From Lachnoclostridium sp. An118 (GTDB lineage Bacteria; Bacillota; Clostridia; Lachnospirales; Lachnospiraceae): a DNA stretch of 64,000 nt. Below the pieces are notes generated by a model that saw only the letters and a list, made by a program, of their open reading frames with translations, had not been told where the DNA came from and did no database searches. Positions 56,617 through 64,000 of this stretch are shown piece after piece. A program made the position numbers and the translations under genes. How positions within the stretch are numbered: position 1 is the first letter of the stretch; the number at the start of each line of letters is the position of its first letter. Where the stretch lies: assembly GCF_002160985.1 (NCBI RefSeq), contig NZ_NFLQ01000010.1, forward strand, positions 1 through 64,000, given 5' to 3'.

Positions 56617-56997
56617 ATGAGAAAAAGAAACCATACCGTTACGATACGGATGAATGAGAAAGAATATGCCCTGCTTCAGCAAAAGATCAAAGCATCGGGT
56701 CAGACACAGCAGGCAGTGATACTTGCCGCAATTGAAAATGTGGATCTAATGTCAGCGGAGGTAAAAGAGGAATTGAATGTATTAAATCAAAGGCTTGGGG
56801 AAATAAACCGTCTGCTGCGAGGTGCAACAACCAATATCAACCAGATCGCACATCATATGAATGCTGGCGGTTTTTATCCCAGAGCAGATGTGCTAAACAG
56901 TCTCAGTGAAAACATATCGGGGTATCGGAAGGAGTGTGAAACGATATGGCAATCAATAAGACAATTAATAAGCGGACAAATTCCCATGGGGCAATGA
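56617..56997 (+). CDS. mobC: MobC-type relaxosome accessory protein
   Basis: A 126-residue protein: HTVTIRMNEKEYALLQQKIK and KASGQTQQAVILAAIENVD form a ribbon-helix-helix, and GATTNINQIAHHMNAGG is the MobC signature. It binds oriT and helps the relaxase nick. AAGGAG and AAAGGATT lie before the ATG at 56617. It overlaps the relaxase gene by 52 bases. Confidence 0.92.
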   Translation: MRKRNHTVTIRMNEKEYALLQQKIKASGQTQQAVILAAIENVDLMSAEVKEELNVLNQRLGEINRLLRGATTNINQIAHHMNAGGFYPRADVLNSLSENISGYRKECETIWQSIRQLISGQIPMGQ

Positions 56998-58187
56998 GAA
57001 ACTGTATTGAGTATATCCTGCGGGAGGGAAAAACGGAGCAGCATCTTGTTCATATCATTGGGCCGTATCCGTATGAAAAAGTAAATTATGATCTGGTATA
57101 TCAGTCGTTTTTAGCGGAAAAACGATTATGGGGGAAGGATTCTGGTCGGATGTATTCCCATAATGTGATTTCCTGGCATAAGGATGAGAAAATCACATCT
57201 GAGCAGGCTTTGGAATTTGGAATAGAATTTGCTGAAAAATGGTTTGCCGGTTTTCAGACAGTTGTCAGTGTCCACAAAGATAAAGACCATATTCACTGCC
57301 ACATAGTTACCAATTCTGTAAGTTACGAAAATGGGAAAAAACTGCATAATTCCAGAAAAGATCTGGAACGTATGAAGCAGCTGACGAATCGGATGTGCCG
57401 GGAACGTGGACTCTCCATAGCGGAAAAAGGCAAGCATTTTGATGGTAGTCAGATTGAGAACGGAGAAGTGATCGCATGGAGTAAAGATAAATACAATCTA
57501 TTTCGTAACCATGCAAAGGATAGTTATGTGGCGGATTGTGCCATGGCTGTGTTGAATGTGATGGAGTATTGTAGCAGCCGGGAGCAATTTATCAGAGAAA
57601 TGAAGAATGCAGGATGGAGCGTCAATTGGACAGAGAAAAGAAAGCATATCACATTCCAGAACCAGGAAGGAAAGAAGGTACGTGACAGCAACCTTTCTAA
57701 GACTTTTCATTTAAAAATCAGTAAGGGGGAATTAGAGGATGAATTTATCAGAAATGAACAAAAAGAAAACCATGATATCCACAGATATGACACAGTTGAT
57801 GCCGATCTCACACGATACTATCAACAAGTGGAAGAAGCTGTCGCAGGAACAAGCGGAGGCCCTGTCGAAAGTGACTGCAGAGAGGGACGAGTTGTTGAAA
57901 GCCCAGACAAAAGATCGAGAATTGATACGGAAATGTATGGAACGAATCGGAGAGTTTCGAGAAGGGATTCGGAGTCTCTCATCCGAAAGTCTGAAGCTGC
58001 AAGACGAGCTTCAGAAGTTAACCGAGGAAAATCAGAAACTGCAAATAGAATTGTCCAAAACGCAGAATATCAGTCAGTCTCTGCAGAGAAGCAACGACGA
58101 TCTGCGGAACAGGAACGGATTGCTGAGCAGGAAAGAGCAAGAGCAGCTCAAAGAAAGAATAAAAGACGTTCAGGCCCGGAACTCTAA
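56946..58187 (+). CDS. MobA/VirD2-family relaxase
   Basis: A 413-residue DNA-nicking transesterase that starts element transfer. HGAMRNCIEYILREGK contains the early relaxase motif. The metal-binding histidines are in VVSVHKDKDHIHCHIVTNSV. The last 140 residues, after QKENHDIHRYDTVDAD, are a charged, serine- and arginine-rich tail read in the frame opposite to another gene at 57739-58500. The catalytic part is complete. The tail is oddly biased, consistent with constraint from the overlapping frame. Confidence 0.9.
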   Translation: MAINKTINKRTNSHGAMRNCIEYILREGKTEQHLVHIIGPYPYEKVNYDLVYQSFLAEKRLWGKDSGRMYSHNVISWHKDEKITSEQALEFGIEFAEKWFAGFQTVVSVHKDKDHIHCHIVTNSVSYENGKKLHNSRKDLERMKQLTNRMCRERGLSIAEKGKHFDGSQIENGEVIAWSKDKYNLFRNHAKDSYVADCAMAVLNVMEYCSSREQFIREMKNAGWSVNWTEKRKHITFQNQEGKKVRDSNLSKTFHLKISKGELEDEFIRNEQKENHDIHRYDTVDADLTRYYQQVEEAVAGTSGGPVESDCREGRVVESPDKRSRIDTEMYGTNRRVSRRDSESLIRKSEAARRASEVNRGKSETANRIVQNAEYQSVSAEKQRRSAEQERIAEQERARAAQRKNKRRSGPEL

Positions 58188-58500: not shown

Positions 58501-59687
58501 AAATAGGAAATGGTAAATAAAAAGGTAGGAGAGAATGTAAGTACACATATTTCATTAGAGGGTGATGTCAAATAGTTTCAAGGAGAATTTCATAGAGCGT
58601 GCCTATCCATGAATGATGAAATTGCCATATATATCTGTGAATGGGTAAATGATATACCATTAACGGATATTTTTGTGGGCAAATATTCTATGCAGATGAT
58701 TCTTGCGATTTGGAAAAGCACGCAATTTTTAAGAGCACTGGAGATGATGAAGGAGTTGTTGGAGGGCCTTACAGAGAAAGCAGAGTTTGTTATATAAGAA
58801 TTATGGGATGGAATTGGAACATGTGGATGAGACATTATTAATGGTATAATTGGAAGAACAGCATAGTAACTACGGAGCACGTGGAGTAAAAGAAGCGTTG
58901 ACAAAGGAGACTATCTATGACTGTAATATTGGCACATATAAAGGGAAGAAGGTGAGACTGTCCAGAGATATTGAAGTTATTAAGATAAACATAATCTCTG
59001 AATGCTAGAAATCCTGGTATCATTTTTCGTTGCTTGGTATATATGCTGAGATGTATAATAAGAGTAATGATATAGGGATATTCTCGTATATACTTTTTTA
59101 TTGAGAAAATCAGCAGGAGGAAAGAAGACTATATCTAATGTGATAAAAAATTATTAGATTTACTTTGAATAAGAGTGTAAAAAACGTGAAATGAAATTAC
59201 AATACTTTTGCCCTAAAGTAAAATCCAGTTTTGGTAACATGGGGAGAGAATTTAGTTTGGAAAATAAACGGAGTTTTTTATTGCATAAGAAAACTGATTT
59301 TGAATATGTTTATTTCACTCTATTTGAGATATCATAAGATTAGCACCTCGTCTGGTTAAAGAAGGAGTATCCTTATTTTGTATATACTTCAGAAAGGAAG
59401 CACGAAAGAGTGGTCTCCGACCGATATGGAGCGTGCCGGTTATTATATAAATGAATGCATGGGATACCCGAAGGCGAAATGAAAGCAACGGAGTATCTGA
59501 AGAAAGACAGATCGCCGAAAGAAGATTATAAAATTACATAGCTGTTTCTGGATCCTGAAGGCCGGTTTTGCGACAAGGAGTATGGAATGAATATAGACGC
59601 CAGGCAGCGAATCGAGGGTGTAGGGAGGCACAGAACTGTCTGCGTCTCCTGAACATGGATTTTGAAGGAGGTTCCTTGTGAAAATCA
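58501..59687 (+). other. Decayed AT-rich region without supported genes
   Basis: Short protein-like frames occur, such as 58609-58797 (MNDEIAIYICEWVNDIPLTD) and 58850-59008 (NYGARGVKEALTKETIYDCN), but they lack ribosome sites and are cut by stops. At 59455-59640 two adjoining fragments (IPEGEMKATEYLKKDRSP and LFLDPEGRFCDKEYGMN) look like one broken gene. This is the worn end of the element. Confidence 0.55.
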
Positions 59688-61673
59688 ATGAATGAGAGCA
59701 AAGAAAAGAAAACCACAGCTACGAAGAAAATCATAGTCATACAGATTTTTCTTCTGATCTGCATCCTGACCGCGCTGTTCATCTGGAAAAGTGCATTATC
59801 CCGTAACCTCAGTGCTTATGTCCAGAGGGCAGTGCCATATGAAGAGACCGGATCAGCGGGAGAACACTATACCATGGAAATCAATTCCATGGATGATTGG
59901 CTGGACTTTTCCGAAAACGTTAATCAAGGGAGAAGCTACCTGGGGTATCGGATCGAATTAAATACGGATCTGGACTTTGCAGACCAGACTTATCTGGATC
60001 CAGTAGGAAGCTACACAAGCCCTTTTGAGGGAAATTTTTATGGGAACGGGCATACGCTCAGGAACATAAGCATATCTTCCGATGAAAATTATGTGGGTGT
60101 GTTCGGCTATACCCAAGGAGCTGTGATTCGGGAACTGAATGTTATTGACTGCCAGCTATACAGCTACTCTGCCACGGGAACTGGCGGGATAGCCGGTTAT
60201 GTTTCGGGATATGTCCTAGAGTGTAGCTTTAGCGGCACAGTAGAGGCAGATGCGGGCTCTGCTGGAGGGATTGCGGGAAATAACTGGGGCGGTATAGACG
60301 ACTGCTCCGTATCTGGAGAGATCAGAGGCTCCGGCGTGAGCGGCGGCTATGGGGGAGGAATGTCTGCTTCCTTTGGAACGGGAGGCATCACCGGAGATAA
60401 TAGCGGGACAGTCAGCAGATGTATCAACTATGCGGAAGTATCCATCGACTCGGACTTTTATGATCTGGGCGGGATATCCGGATATAATCAGGGATTCATA
60501 CAATCCTGCGGGAATTTTGCAGATATGAACGGCGGCGGGATCGTTGACAATAATTCGGATTACGCAGTCATTCGGGGATGCTTTAGCTTTGGCGATACAT
60601 ACGCTGGCATAGCGGTTGGAAGCTACAGCGAAAGTACCATAGAGTACTGTGTGAATCTGGGTCTTACATCGGGCCGGTATGCGGCAGGTATCGTTTCCTT
60701 CTGGGGGCAGGATAATGAAGAGAATTATCAGGGAAGGATTTCACAGTGTTTATCTGCGGGGACTTTCGGAAATGAACTGGTCAGAAGCAGGTATTTTGAC
60801 AGCAGTTTCCTGACTGCAAATTACCGGATACATACGCTGTCGAACGCGGAAACAGAACAGTTGACCGCCCTTCTGGAGGAAAACGAATATGAAGAGGCCT
60901 ATGGATTTGCGGCAGAAACGGAGAATCAAAGGAGAAACATCATATTTTGTGTAACAGCGGTGGGGCTGACTCTTTTGCTTGCGGTCGGCGACAGTATCTA
61001 TTTTGGAAGAAAAACATTAGAAAAGCAGAGAATTTATATCCGGGCAGGAAAACTGGTGAAAGAGGGAGCGCTTCGGGAAGGCGCCTGCTTGTATGGTACA
61101 GTTCTGGATTATAAGGACAGCGCCGACCGGGGAAAAAGCTGTTTTAGGGATTATCTGCAGAAGTGTACGGAGTCAGGAAAATTTGAAATCGGTAGGATCC
61201 ATGGAGAATCCATCTTGTGGGAGTGTATCAGCAGGAAAGAAACAGAATACCGTCTGCTGTGCGGAGCGGTTCTGAAAGTAGAGTGTATCCATGCTGCCCC
61301 GGAGCTTGTCTCATGGAAGAATTCTGATCTGTATAAGAAGTTGAATTCTGTTTACAGGCAGGAATGGTTCAGCACGATAGAGCAGGGATTCCTGAAGGGA
61401 GAGGTTGATCTTCTGACAATGGAGGAAGCAAAGCAGATTTCGAAAAACAAAGAACGCATGCGGTGCAAATCTGCTGGCGGACCGGGAGATATCCTCACCG
61501 GCAGCGGCTGTGTATACTGGTGGATTCGAAATGAAGATAAAAGAGAAACTGCTAGAATGCCATTTGTAACAGGCGAAGGACTGATCAGTGAGAGAGGAAT
61601 GTGGAACACAGCGGAGAATATAGGCGTCCGTCCGGTGATAACCATAAAGGTGGAAAATGAAGATTCTATTTAA
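59688..61673 (+). CDS. Membrane protein with GLUG beta-solenoid ectodomain and DUF6273-like end
   Basis: A 661-residue protein. A membrane helix at residues 14-35 is followed by about 380 residues, with GLUG-type repeats (GNFYGNGHTLRNISI, GTGGIAGYVSGYVLECSFSG, AGGIAGNNWGGIDDCS, GGITGDNSGTVSRCINYAEV) that form a right-handed beta solenoid, probably outside the cell. A second helix lies at about 415-437. The cytoplasmic part has a repeat-like stretch (LDYKDSADRGKSCFRDYLQ) and ends with WWIRNEDKRE and ENIGVRPVITIKV, resembling DUF6273. AAGGAGGT is 15 bases before the ATG, rather far. First gene of an unrecognised operon. Confidence 0.75.
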   Translation: MNESKEKKTTATKKIIVIQIFLLICILTALFIWKSALSRNLSAYVQRAVPYEETGSAGEHYTMEINSMDDWLDFSENVNQGRSYLGYRIELNTDLDFADQTYLDPVGSYTSPFEGNFYGNGHTLRNISISSDENYVGVFGYTQGAVIRELNVIDCQLYSYSATGTGGIAGYVSGYVLECSFSGTVEADAGSAGGIAGNNWGGIDDCSVSGEIRGSGVSGGYGGGMSASFGTGGITGDNSGTVSRCINYAEVSIDSDFYDLGGISGYNQGFIQSCGNFADMNGGGIVDNNSDYAVIRGCFSFGDTYAGIAVGSYSESTIEYCVNLGLTSGRYAAGIVSFWGQDNEENYQGRISQCLSAGTFGNELVRSRYFDSSFLTANYRIHTLSNAETEQLTALLEENEYEEAYGFAAETENQRRNIIFCVTAVGLTLLLAVGDSIYFGRKTLEKQRIYIRAGKLVKEGALREGACLYGTVLDYKDSADRGKSCFRDYLQKCTESGKFEIGRIHGESILWECISRKETEYRLLCGAVLKVECIHAAPELVSWKNSDLYKKLNSVYRQEWFSTIEQGFLKGEVDLLTMEEAKQISKNKERMRCKSAGGPGDILTGSGCVYWWIRNEDKRETARMPFVTGEGLISERGMWNTAENIGVRPVITIKVENEDSI

Positions 61674-63486
61674 ATCTATCGGAACAGGAATATTGTGTTT
61701 TGTGGCGTTCATTCTGCTGATCGCTATGGCAGATAATATGCCCACAATGATTTCCAGTGTCTTTGAGGTCAGCCTGAGAGACTGGTGGTATGATTTTGTG
61801 ACAGAGAAAACGCTGGAGTATGTCGCGGCAACAGCAGTGCTGACCGCTGTGATGTATCTGGTCTGGCAGTTGGGAAGCAGGGCAGGAAGATCTGCAGGGA
61901 CGGTTCTGGCGATTCTGGTTGCGGGAGAGCTGATCCTGGCGGCGTCCTTTGGCCAGTACTGGAACTATATAGAAGAAAACTGCGTCCCGGCGGAATGGTC
62001 GGGCCTGGAGCTGGCCTATACAGAGTCTTTCGGCTCCCTGCAGGCTGCGAGGCTGTATTTTTTCATATTTGTGTGTGTTATTTTCGCGGCAGGAATCATT
62101 TTGAATTACCTGAAAGTTTTCTTCCGGGACCAAATCGAAAAGGAGACCGCAGATCAGGTTTTCAGCGGAAACAGACTGTTTCAGGAGATGCTCTGCACGG
62201 GAATTCCTGTATGTATTATTCTGACGGGAACCTATAGTTTGGCCGGCTTTTTGGATTTCCCTGTAGCTGAGCTTTTTGCGATTGTGTTTGTGGCCATGAT
62301 TTTGGGGCATGTCCTCCTCTCATCTTTTTATTTCAGAAAAATCTTGCAGTATTACAGATCAATTATCGAAGACAGAGAAATCAAAAGATATCTTGTAATC
62401 GTGAGAGAAAACAGTTCCTCACAGAAGTCCTTTCTTTATGAAAGATTCTGGCGGAAAGGAAACTGCATTGAGAAATTGCAAAAACAGGAGATTTATCTAC
62501 TCCCCCGGAACCTGTCAGAAGGAAATGACGGCAGCTTCATTATGCTGGACGTGTACAGCGGGGAGGCGGCGGGAAAAGAGCTGAAGGACAAAGAAAAGTT
62601 TGAAAAAACTAGGCTTCAGGAAAGAGGTACGTTCAACATTGCATACTGTGAGGATACATATGCCTTCCGAGACTATATCCGTTTCTACGACCGGTACGCT
62701 TCCGATCTGGAGACATTAATGAAAGAAATCATAGCGTTAAAAGGTTTTCTGCAGTACCGTGAGAGGCAGACCGGGATTATTTCAAGACTGCAGACGGACA
62801 GTCTTACGGTTACGAACTGCATCGTAGATGAAATCATTGCCTTCCGGCGGTATTTTGACCAGAATATAAACCGGTTTCTTGTGTTTGATTATGCGATTAA
62901 ATGGCTGGAGACTGTGAACTACCTATATACTATGATCGCTGTTTCCCATCAGGCAGTCCCGCTGTCCGGGAAAGTCAGAAACCGGATCGTGATGGCGGAT
63001 TTTAAAAAGTGGACAGAGCTGAGAGAGAATGTTGTCCATGATAGGGATATAGATGGGATCATCAGCCGCAGTCACCGCGGGGATTCGGTTTTCCAGAGCT
63101 TTCAAAGGATATGGAAAGCCGTTACGGTAAGGGAGTACTCATTCTCAAAATACACGGTAGGCGAGCTGATTGCGGCTTCCAATCGGCTGCGGAATTATAC
63201 AAGAGGCCACGGGGTATTTACTTTTGAGATATCGGATGAAATCAACCTGGATCTGCTTGAGATTCTGGTGTTTCTGATCAATCAGATGATAGTAAATGAT
63301 CAGCTTGATGGAGATTTTTCCAATCTGGAGGAACTCGGCTGGATGGTCTATGTCGGGGATACCCCTTATTTCCTGTATTCTTACAACAAGACCTACGATG
63401 AATACTGCTTTAATTCATTCCGGAACAGCAGCAGTATTATGCTGCCGGCAGATATCAGGAGAAAAGAAGATGAACAGATACATTAG
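61657..63486 (+). CDS. Polytopic membrane protein with large soluble C-terminal domain, unknown family
   Basis: I do not recognise this 609-residue protein. About six membrane segments lie within the first 225 residues (for example GTGILCFVAFILLIAMADN, LYFFIFVCVIFAAGIILN). They are followed by about 380 soluble residues, rich in aromatic and charged residues, with helical parts such as YASDLETLMKEIIALKGFLQ. No enzymatic motif is visible. It starts 17 bases inside the end of the preceding gene, which supplies the GTGGAAAATGAAG context, so the two are translationally coupled. Confidence 0.72.
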   Translation: MKILFKSIGTGILCFVAFILLIAMADNMPTMISSVFEVSLRDWWYDFVTEKTLEYVAATAVLTAVMYLVWQLGSRAGRSAGTVLAILVAGELILAASFGQYWNYIEENCVPAEWSGLELAYTESFGSLQAARLYFFIFVCVIFAAGIILNYLKVFFRDQIEKETADQVFSGNRLFQEMLCTGIPVCIILTGTYSLAGFLDFPVAELFAIVFVAMILGHVLLSSFYFRKILQYYRSIIEDREIKRYLVIVRENSSSQKSFLYERFWRKGNCIEKLQKQEIYLLPRNLSEGNDGSFIMLDVYSGEAAGKELKDKEKFEKTRLQERGTFNIAYCEDTYAFRDYIRFYDRYASDLETLMKEIIALKGFLQYRERQTGIISRLQTDSLTVTNCIVDEIIAFRRYFDQNINRFLVFDYAIKWLETVNYLYTMIAVSHQAVPLSGKVRNRIVMADFKKWTELRENVVHDRDIDGIISRSHRGDSVFQSFQRIWKAVTVREYSFSKYTVGELIAASNRLRNYTRGHGVFTFEISDEINLDLLEILVFLINQMIVNDQLDGDFSNLEELGWMVYVGDTPYFLYSYNKTYDEYCFNSFRNSSSIMLPADIRRKEDEQIH

Positions 63487-64000
63487 TTGGAATAACCGGA
63501 GACGGGACAGAAACTATTGGATAGGAATATGGATTTTGCTGGCTTCCGCGGTAAATTTCCATGTCTGGCTTAACATAGAGAATGGCCCTGCCGCTGTAAT
63601 CAGGGACGTGCTGGAGCGTTTTTACAGAAGAATTATTCCCAGCCTGCTGATCAGCGGGGCCGGATATATACTCTTTGCAGAACTTACATTCATAGCGGGG
63701 ACAGTAATGATCGTCTTTCTGCTGAATCATCTTGCTGGTATGCTGCCGGATACGGAGCTTCAGGGTGTATCCGGAAAGTACCGGTTTGTATACAGAACTT
63801 CTTTTCTGTGTGATGTCTTTGCAGGACTGTTTCTTGAACTGGCGGCAGCGGCAGGACTGGGAGGGATGACAGAAATACTGACAGGCGAATCTGCTGCCGC
63901 GTGGCTTTTTATGCTGTTTTTTGTCTGCGGCAGTGTTCTGTACTGGAGAAGTATCCTGCCTGCTGCGCAGTATCATAAGGTGTGGAACCTGTTAAAAGCA
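63470..64000 (+). CDS. Polytopic membrane protein, 5' part, unknown family
   Basis: The ATG at 63470 lies 17 bases before the end of the previous gene and is preceded by AGGAGAAAAGAAG. The frame stays open to the window end (177 codons). The product starts with a basic segment (SWNNRRRDRNYWIG) and has about four hydrophobic segments (WIGIWILLASAVNFHVWL, LLISGAGYILFAELTFIA, TSFLCDVFAGLFLELAAA, AAWLFMLFFVCGSVLYW). The C-terminus is missing. It belongs to the same operon as the two preceding genes. Confidence 0.72.
   Translation, partial: MNRYISWNNRRRDRNYWIGIWILLASAVNFHVWLNIENGPAAVIRDVLERFYRRIIPSLLISGAGYILFAELTFIAGTVMIVFLLNHLAGMLPDTELQGVSGKYRFVYRTSFLCDVFAGLFLELAAAAGLGGMTEILTGESAAAWLFMLFFVCGSVLYWRSILPAAQYHKVWNLLKA

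Follow-up and report, generated by a model that had tools for sequence, protein, structure and literature searches.

Four consecutive genes carried on a mobile element of roughly 60 kb may together form a membrane-anchored, TIR-armed defence module, a reading to which we assign a probability of a little under 0.4. Gene 1 would act as a two-pass membrane sensor with a GLUG solenoid outside the cell and a DUF6273 domain inside, and genes 2 and 3, as diverged paralogues, would assemble into a complex in the membrane whose large domains reach into the cytosol. An envelope signal, such as an adsorbing phage, incoming DNA or contact with a mating partner, could then pass through the membrane complex to the cytosolic TIR protein of gene 4, whose TIR domain would degrade NAD+ or make a signalling product, and growth of the affected cell would stop. 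We infer the joint action of the four genes, the direction of signalling, the NADase activity and the role in defence from sequence. GLUG, DUF6273 and TIR domains are known, but the libraries searched contain no match to their combination or to the two orphan proteins. An earlier sequence-only reading had proposed an unrecognised membrane operon at this place; that proposal is supported, with genes 2 and 3 having no family over cut-off and the operon lying inside a mobile element.

Layout of the genes and of the element that carries them

The window analysed here is a stretch of 64,000 nt, and its coordinates are those of contig C2 (NZ_NFLQ01000010.1) of the source genome. Genes 1 to 3 are long open reading frames (ORFs) located exactly where the earlier reading had put them, and both junctions do overlap by exactly 17 bases (Table 1). 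The start of gene 2 is tightly bounded, its open frame comprising 612 codons. For gene 3, an earlier in-frame ATG at 63296 would lengthen the overlap with gene 2, and the start at 63470 is preferred on account of the motif GGAGA 5' of it. The two equal overlaps suggest translational coupling across genes 1 to 3; the fixed stoichiometry that had also been read from them does not follow, as overlaps of equal length say nothing firm about it.

Table 1. Coordinates of the four genes, their junctions and landmark genes of the element (contig positions, identical to window positions up to 64,000).
Feature	Position	Strand	Description
Relaxase of the element	56946–58187	+	Pfam Relaxase, 1.5e-32
Broken element-gene copies 5' of the operon	58639–59126	+	101-aa gene, 54% over 52 aa; AAA gene of contig 80391, 64% over 73 aa
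Gene 1	59688–61673	+	Intact ORF, 661 aa
Gene 1, parts			N-terminal tail; transmembrane segment aa 15–33; predicted external GLUG-like segment; transmembrane segment aa 419–437; predicted cytosolic diverged DUF6273, aa 502–656
Overlap of genes 1 and 2	61657–61673	+	17 nt
Gene 2	61657–63486	+	Intact ORF, 609 aa
Overlap of genes 2 and 3	63470–63486	+	17 nt; GGAGA 5' of the gene 3 ATG
Gene 3	63470–65194 (in the window to 64000)	+	ORF crossing the window edge, 574 aa
Gene 4	65284–66777	+	497 aa; N-domain of no known family and TIR domain
Serine recombinase	111257–112609		Element gene

The surroundings had been described as an element remnant, a description that has to be given up: the mobile element extends from about 51.7 kb, where ParB, an actin-like partition protein, MobC and the relaxase are encoded, and intact element genes continue to the serine recombinase. 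Two VirD4-like ATPases and homologues of ThiF and ClpP are also carried, and VirB4 was not recognised among the element proteins scanned. Five TIR genes lie on the element (contig 65284, 66965, 68567, 82793 and 103603) and type III CRISPR-Cas genes lie beside a related element, which bears out the defence-like setting suggested earlier. Upstream of the operon, next to broken copies of element genes, a 112-nt stretch (window 59015–59126) recurs at 80% identity at contig 103407–103516, 5' of a TIR-TPR gene.

The product of this TIR-TPR gene (contig 103603–106815; L008:5713–8925) has 1070 aa, and its repeats are encoded by DNA units, each of about 126 bp and 79–87% identical to one another, the number of which likely varies. 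A NADAR protein (contig 70208–71095; L003:12209–13096) is of the DarT1-antitoxin type (2e-55); no DarT was present among the proteins scanned near it, and it could protect the element from DarT systems of the host. A Card1-like endonuclease domain (4.3e-6) is encoded at contig 97899–98744 (L008:9–854), and both this gene and the next have relatives of 41–43% identity in a related element of another genome (G203).

Domain make-up of the three membrane proteins

Hydropathy places two transmembrane (TM) segments in gene 1 (Table 1), and basic residues are more frequent before the first and after the second, a charge pattern that predicts the GLUG-like segment outside the cell and the C-terminal half in the cytosol. 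Most known occurrences of GLUG segments are in surface proteins. The profile phrog_30905 of PHROGs matches aa 88–196 of gene 1 (1.5e-5), and a tblastn search of 50,697 phage records found the GLUG part in two, with identities of 25% and 31%. The earlier assignment of a GLUG domain outside and a DUF6273-like domain inside stands for its predicted topology, by charges, and for DUF6273, by way of intermediates, whereas GLUG itself (PF07581) reaches 17.5 bits in two stretches, against a Pfam cut-off of 20.5.

Searched directly, DUF6273 (PF19789) gave no match to gene 1 at E ≤ 1 (Pfam) and none in the source genome, nor was it matched by the C-terminal half alone at E ≤ 10 (Pfam). When this half was used as the query, 22 of 250 genomes of the family, the source genome included, matched at E ≤ 0.01; 11 regions were retrieved from these matches, and ten C-terminal ends were profiled with gene 1 left out. 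Gene 1 scores 74 bits over aa 502–656 against the resulting profile, and nine of the ten profiled relatives pass the PF19789 cut-off, the tenth falling 0.9 bits short (22.6 against 23.5). As the ten had been selected for matching gene 1, this is a linkage by intermediates and no independent test. Judged by that linkage, the C-terminus of gene 1 is a diverged DUF6273 domain, and the earlier call was right in substance.

The partner domains of DUF6273 in these ten relatives were an acyltransferase in six, TIR in two and a protein kinase in one, with none of these in the last, and our own TIR profile found TIR in 2 of 20 PF19789 loci (trimmed at about 1.5 kb on each side). Among the 250 genomes, the nearest relative of the gene 1 C-terminal half is an 862-aa TIR-TM-DUF6273 protein of G265 (25% over 301 aa, 3e-14). 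In relatives with a single TM segment after an N-terminal TIR or kinase domain DUF6273 would lie outside the cell, whereas in gene 1 it is predicted inside, a difference that counts against the module reading.

A reverse transcriptase is encoded close to TIR-DUF6273 proteins in G265 (L122:13283–14530), and no adenine-biased template or variable repeat was present in the 19 kb of sequence retrieved there. A diversity-generating retroelement acting on gene 1 was likewise considered and rejected, there being no template-like repeat of the gene 1 3' end on the contig; the two RVT_1 places of the source genome are both on contigs other than that of gene 1.

Genes 2 and 3 had been called polytopic and of no recognised family, and both points were confirmed. 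Hydropathy gives gene 2 about six N-terminal TM segments followed by a soluble part of ~380 aa, and gene 3 about four followed by ~400 aa (one extra C-terminal hydrophobic peak in each was taken as not TM), and no family exceeded the cut-off in Pfam, PADLOC, NCBIfam or PHROGs, the best Pfam E being 0.05. A profile match to a secretion or polysaccharide-export system, which had been named as evidence against an undescribed system, was looked for in genes 1 to 3 with these collections and not obtained, and PADLOC had no match for the three genes, which counts against the defence reading. Near their C-terminal ends, the soluble parts carry LRNYTRGHGVF (gene 2) and LRNVLRGHGSF (gene 3), with LRN-x-x-RGHG-x-F in common. 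In one BLAST comparison the two proteins are 28% identical over 94 aa (E 0.012). In a shuffling test, 2 of 1000 shuffles of the gene 2 C-terminal part reached the observed score, and the two are probably distant paralogues.

The shared motif also satisfies the rule for HEPN domains, which PMC3710099 gives as Rx4–6H with a polar residue after the arginine: RNYTRGH and RNVLRGH are both Rx5H with N in that place. Genes 2 and 3 might then encode HEPN-type RNases anchored in the membrane, which would be the actual effectors, with the TIR protein as a second effector or a regulator. The motif occurs once per protein, at a matching place in both, and it ends a helix in the structure that AlphaFold predicts for the C-terminal part of gene 2, although that model is very poor (pLDDT 33.5) and cannot support a fold. 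However, no HEPN profile matches either protein at E ≤ 10, the Ex3[KR] companion found upstream in gene 3 is absent in gene 2, and a loose form of the rule (R[NDH]x3–5H) also occurs in 10 of the 40 ORFs that have 150 aa or more between 50 and 114 kb of the contig, so that RNase activity of genes 2 and 3 is only a guess. HEPN was thus rejected as a firm assignment made from the motif without a profile match, and we regard the RNase explanation as improbable. Very unlikely is an undescribed membrane immune complex in which the solenoid sensor would signal through two paralogous polytopic HEPN-type RNases to a TIR NADase, as a four-protein transmembrane TIR receptor system spread by the mobile element.

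Relatives of genes 2 and 3 were sought in samples of genomes, where gene 2 was matched in the source genome only (1 of 195 relatives) and so was gene 3 (1 of 397 genomes). A joint profile of the two, run on 196 genomes of the class, found the source genome and otherwise one weak match, a G866 stretch of 86 positions (E 0.005) that contains one stop and was judged to be chance. Gene 2 had no match in the plasmid and phage collections, nor had gene 3 in the plasmid collection. Short exact patterns, which would miss distant relatives, gave no confirmed match to either gene in IMG/VR, and exact peptides of gene 2, subject to the same limit, met 56 stretches in the GTDB collection, with none confirmed. 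The common motif, searched in the GTDB collection (84,980 species) with CTN-coded leucine, so that TTR-coded leucine or an altered motif would be missed, met 55 stretches, which were judged by eye to be chance, given the lengths of their frames, their composition and the absence of similarity outside the motif. Their best BLAST E values were 0.001–0.003 over 13–21 aa, and a 581-aa frame recurs among them in five Amycolatopsis loci; a scan of IMG/VR for the motif met six stretches, judged to be chance likewise. These searches thus turned up no credible relative of either gene, and the module reading is weakened by having no recurrent pairing with gene 4 to draw on.

A TIR gene beyond the window edge

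The three genes described from the window did not complete the picture: in the sequence beyond 64 kb, which the sequence-only reading had proposed to obtain, a TIR gene hidden by the window edge follows gene 3 in the same orientation. Its TIR domain matches TIR_2 of Pfam at 5.7e-11 (43.4 bits, cut-off 28), and its best solved relatives are the TIR domains of SARM1 (3.2e-13). Residue E436 aligns under the Glu of SARM1 'HKEI', which we take to be the catalytic residue; TIR domains are often NAD-destroying enzymes. The N-domain, of 350 aa, could not be placed in any family above threshold (best Pfam E 0.027) and was found in the source genome only (1 of 392), with no match in the plasmid collection or in IMG/VR. 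A profile of it matched 2 of 348 genomes, namely the source genome and G203, whose copy is broken by a stop and is itself part of the profile. This G203 piece (L022:19504–19887, minus strand) is more similar to the gene 4 N-domain than every one of 999 shuffles, and it adjoins a duplicated fragment of the element's 426-aa gene, with genes 1 to 3 absent.

Genes 3 and 4 are separated by 89 nt, and a strong ribosome-binding site precedes gene 4. A consensus scan found no terminator- or promoter-like site in this gap; the scan has little power, and overall it gives 24 promoter-like sites against 26.4 in shuffles. The GC contents at third codon positions (GC3) of genes 1 to 4 are 0.50, 0.55, 0.53 and 0.55, and those of the TIR genes 5 and 6 are 0.37 and 0.39; as NADAR and VirD4 of the element both have 0.52, composition separates genes 1 to 4 from genes 5 and 6 while leaving them indistinct from the backbone of the element. 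Genes 4 and 5 are separated by what is left of a Cro/C1-type HTH gene, its 3' end (HTH_26, 24 bits, cut-off 22). From the short gap, the ribosome-binding site, GC3 and the HTH remnant after gene 4, we infer that genes 1 to 4 are one unit.

The strongest rival, and a close one, is that genes 1 to 3 are a surface or transport complex, for example one that serves adhesion, keeps out a second copy of the element or acts in export, with the TIR gene as an unrelated neighbour; we consider it only slightly less likely than the module. Overlap coupling is restricted to genes 1 to 3, gene 4 having no overlap with gene 3, and more TIR genes of other make-up follow, yet GC3 is alike in genes 1 to 4 and differs in genes 5 and 6, and no terminator-like site precedes gene 4. 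The surface proteins in which GLUG is mostly known, and the six of ten DUF6273 relatives that are membrane acyltransferases, would suit a surface complex, but no transport or export profile was matched by genes 1 to 3, and TIR-DUF6273 proteins exist elsewhere. The broken relative of the gene 4 N-domain found in G203 apart from genes 1 to 3 favours the unrelated neighbour and counts against a joint module. The module reading draws on the TIR domain with its aligned Glu, the 89-nt gap, the ribosome-binding site, the GC3 difference from genes 5 and 6 and the TIR-DUF6273 proteins elsewhere. Its figure was kept down since GC3 is the same as in the backbone and since DUF6273, which has many partners, is commoner with acyltransferases than with TIR.

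It is also conceivable, and in our view unlikely, that genes 1 to 4 are orphan, largely inactive cargo, assembled by chance on a mobile element and without joint function. Decayed gene pieces upstream, the broken HTH gene after gene 4 and the want of relatives of genes 2 and 3 in any collection searched would fit such cargo; four consecutive intact ORFs of 497–661 aa, with two exact overlaps and ribosome-binding sites, and a codon-position composition like that of NADAR and VirD4, speak against it.

Known systems and related elements

TIR-TM-DUF6273 and TIR-DUF6273 proteins (among them L122:9437–12025, L131:224–3025 and L141:6010–7218) join the two domains that are found here in genes 1 and 4, and the TM-DUF6273 half of the L122 protein aligns with the gene 1 C-terminal half. 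They are one chain, whereas in the present case DUF6273 is on the GLUG-bearing two-pass gene 1 and TIR on gene 4, which has a different N-domain; the genes for the two orphan membrane proteins separate them. Gene 4 resembles SARM1 and bacterial TIR NADases in its FISYRR box and aligned Glu and differs from them in its large family-less N-domain; its NADase activity is putative. To Thoeris (ThsB/ThcB) only the TIR domain is alike (30.5 bits to NCBIfam ThcB4, whose cut-off is 220), and a ThsA-type partner (SLOG/SIR2) is absent among the proteins scanned, the proposed partners of gene 4 being membrane proteins instead. The likeness of genes 2 and 3 to the HEPN superfamily lies in the motif and is not accompanied by a profile match.

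Within the part of the literature covered, no paper joined any two of GLUG, TIR domain and DUF6273, and none joined RGHG and HEPN. In the same literature, DUF6273 appears in work on phages, IgA proteases and a proteome, and there is literature joining TIR, transmembrane, anti-phage, membrane-anchored and NADase. If the module reading is true, the joining of an outward-facing solenoid with two orphan membrane proteins and a TIR enzyme would make a bacterial counterpart, in layout, of transmembrane TIR receptors, and genes 1 to 4 may represent a module for surveillance or self-sacrifice that has not been described. To our knowledge, most known bacterial TIR systems sense inside the cell.

Related elements were located by their VirD4 genes. 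One search matched 12 of 150 genomes, the source included, with G203 at 76% and the other ten weak; a second matched two of 11, the source included, with G004, a genome of the same genus, at 88%. G004 keeps the run of NADAR, 92-aa, 101-aa and 426-aa genes and VirD4 at 72–88% identity (NADAR 85%). Genes 1 to 5 were unmatched among ORFs of at least 60 aa in G004:C2:15–90 kb, and gene 6 was matched there by its TIR only (30% over 94 aa). This shows, by ORF comparison, that genes 1 to 6 lie outside the block common to the source element and G004. ParB, the partition protein, MobC and the relaxase likewise had no ORF match in that region; the idea that G004 shows the cargo site cleanly empty was rejected, the ParB-relaxase half being missing together with genes 1 to 5. 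The G203 contig stops before the ParB-relaxase side. The NADAR antitoxin was also rejected as a member of the module, being conserved beside the backbone in G004, which is without genes 1 to 5; by this conservation it is element backbone.

Beyond its second VirD4-like gene, G004 encodes Cas10, Cas6, four RAMP proteins (one below cut-off), RT-Cas2, TOTE-type pieces and a TIR-DUF6273 protein, and from their position these Cas and TIR-DUF6273 genes would be cargo of the G004 element. DUF6273 is linked with TIR in several proteins, and the gene of one such protein stands amid type III CRISPR-Cas genes; the association could be tested in its own right. The protein from the CRISPR-Cas locus (L141:6010–7218; G004:C2:60990–62201) is encoded between Cas6 and Cas10, in type III-like surroundings that include RT-Cas2, and is a candidate accessory effector.
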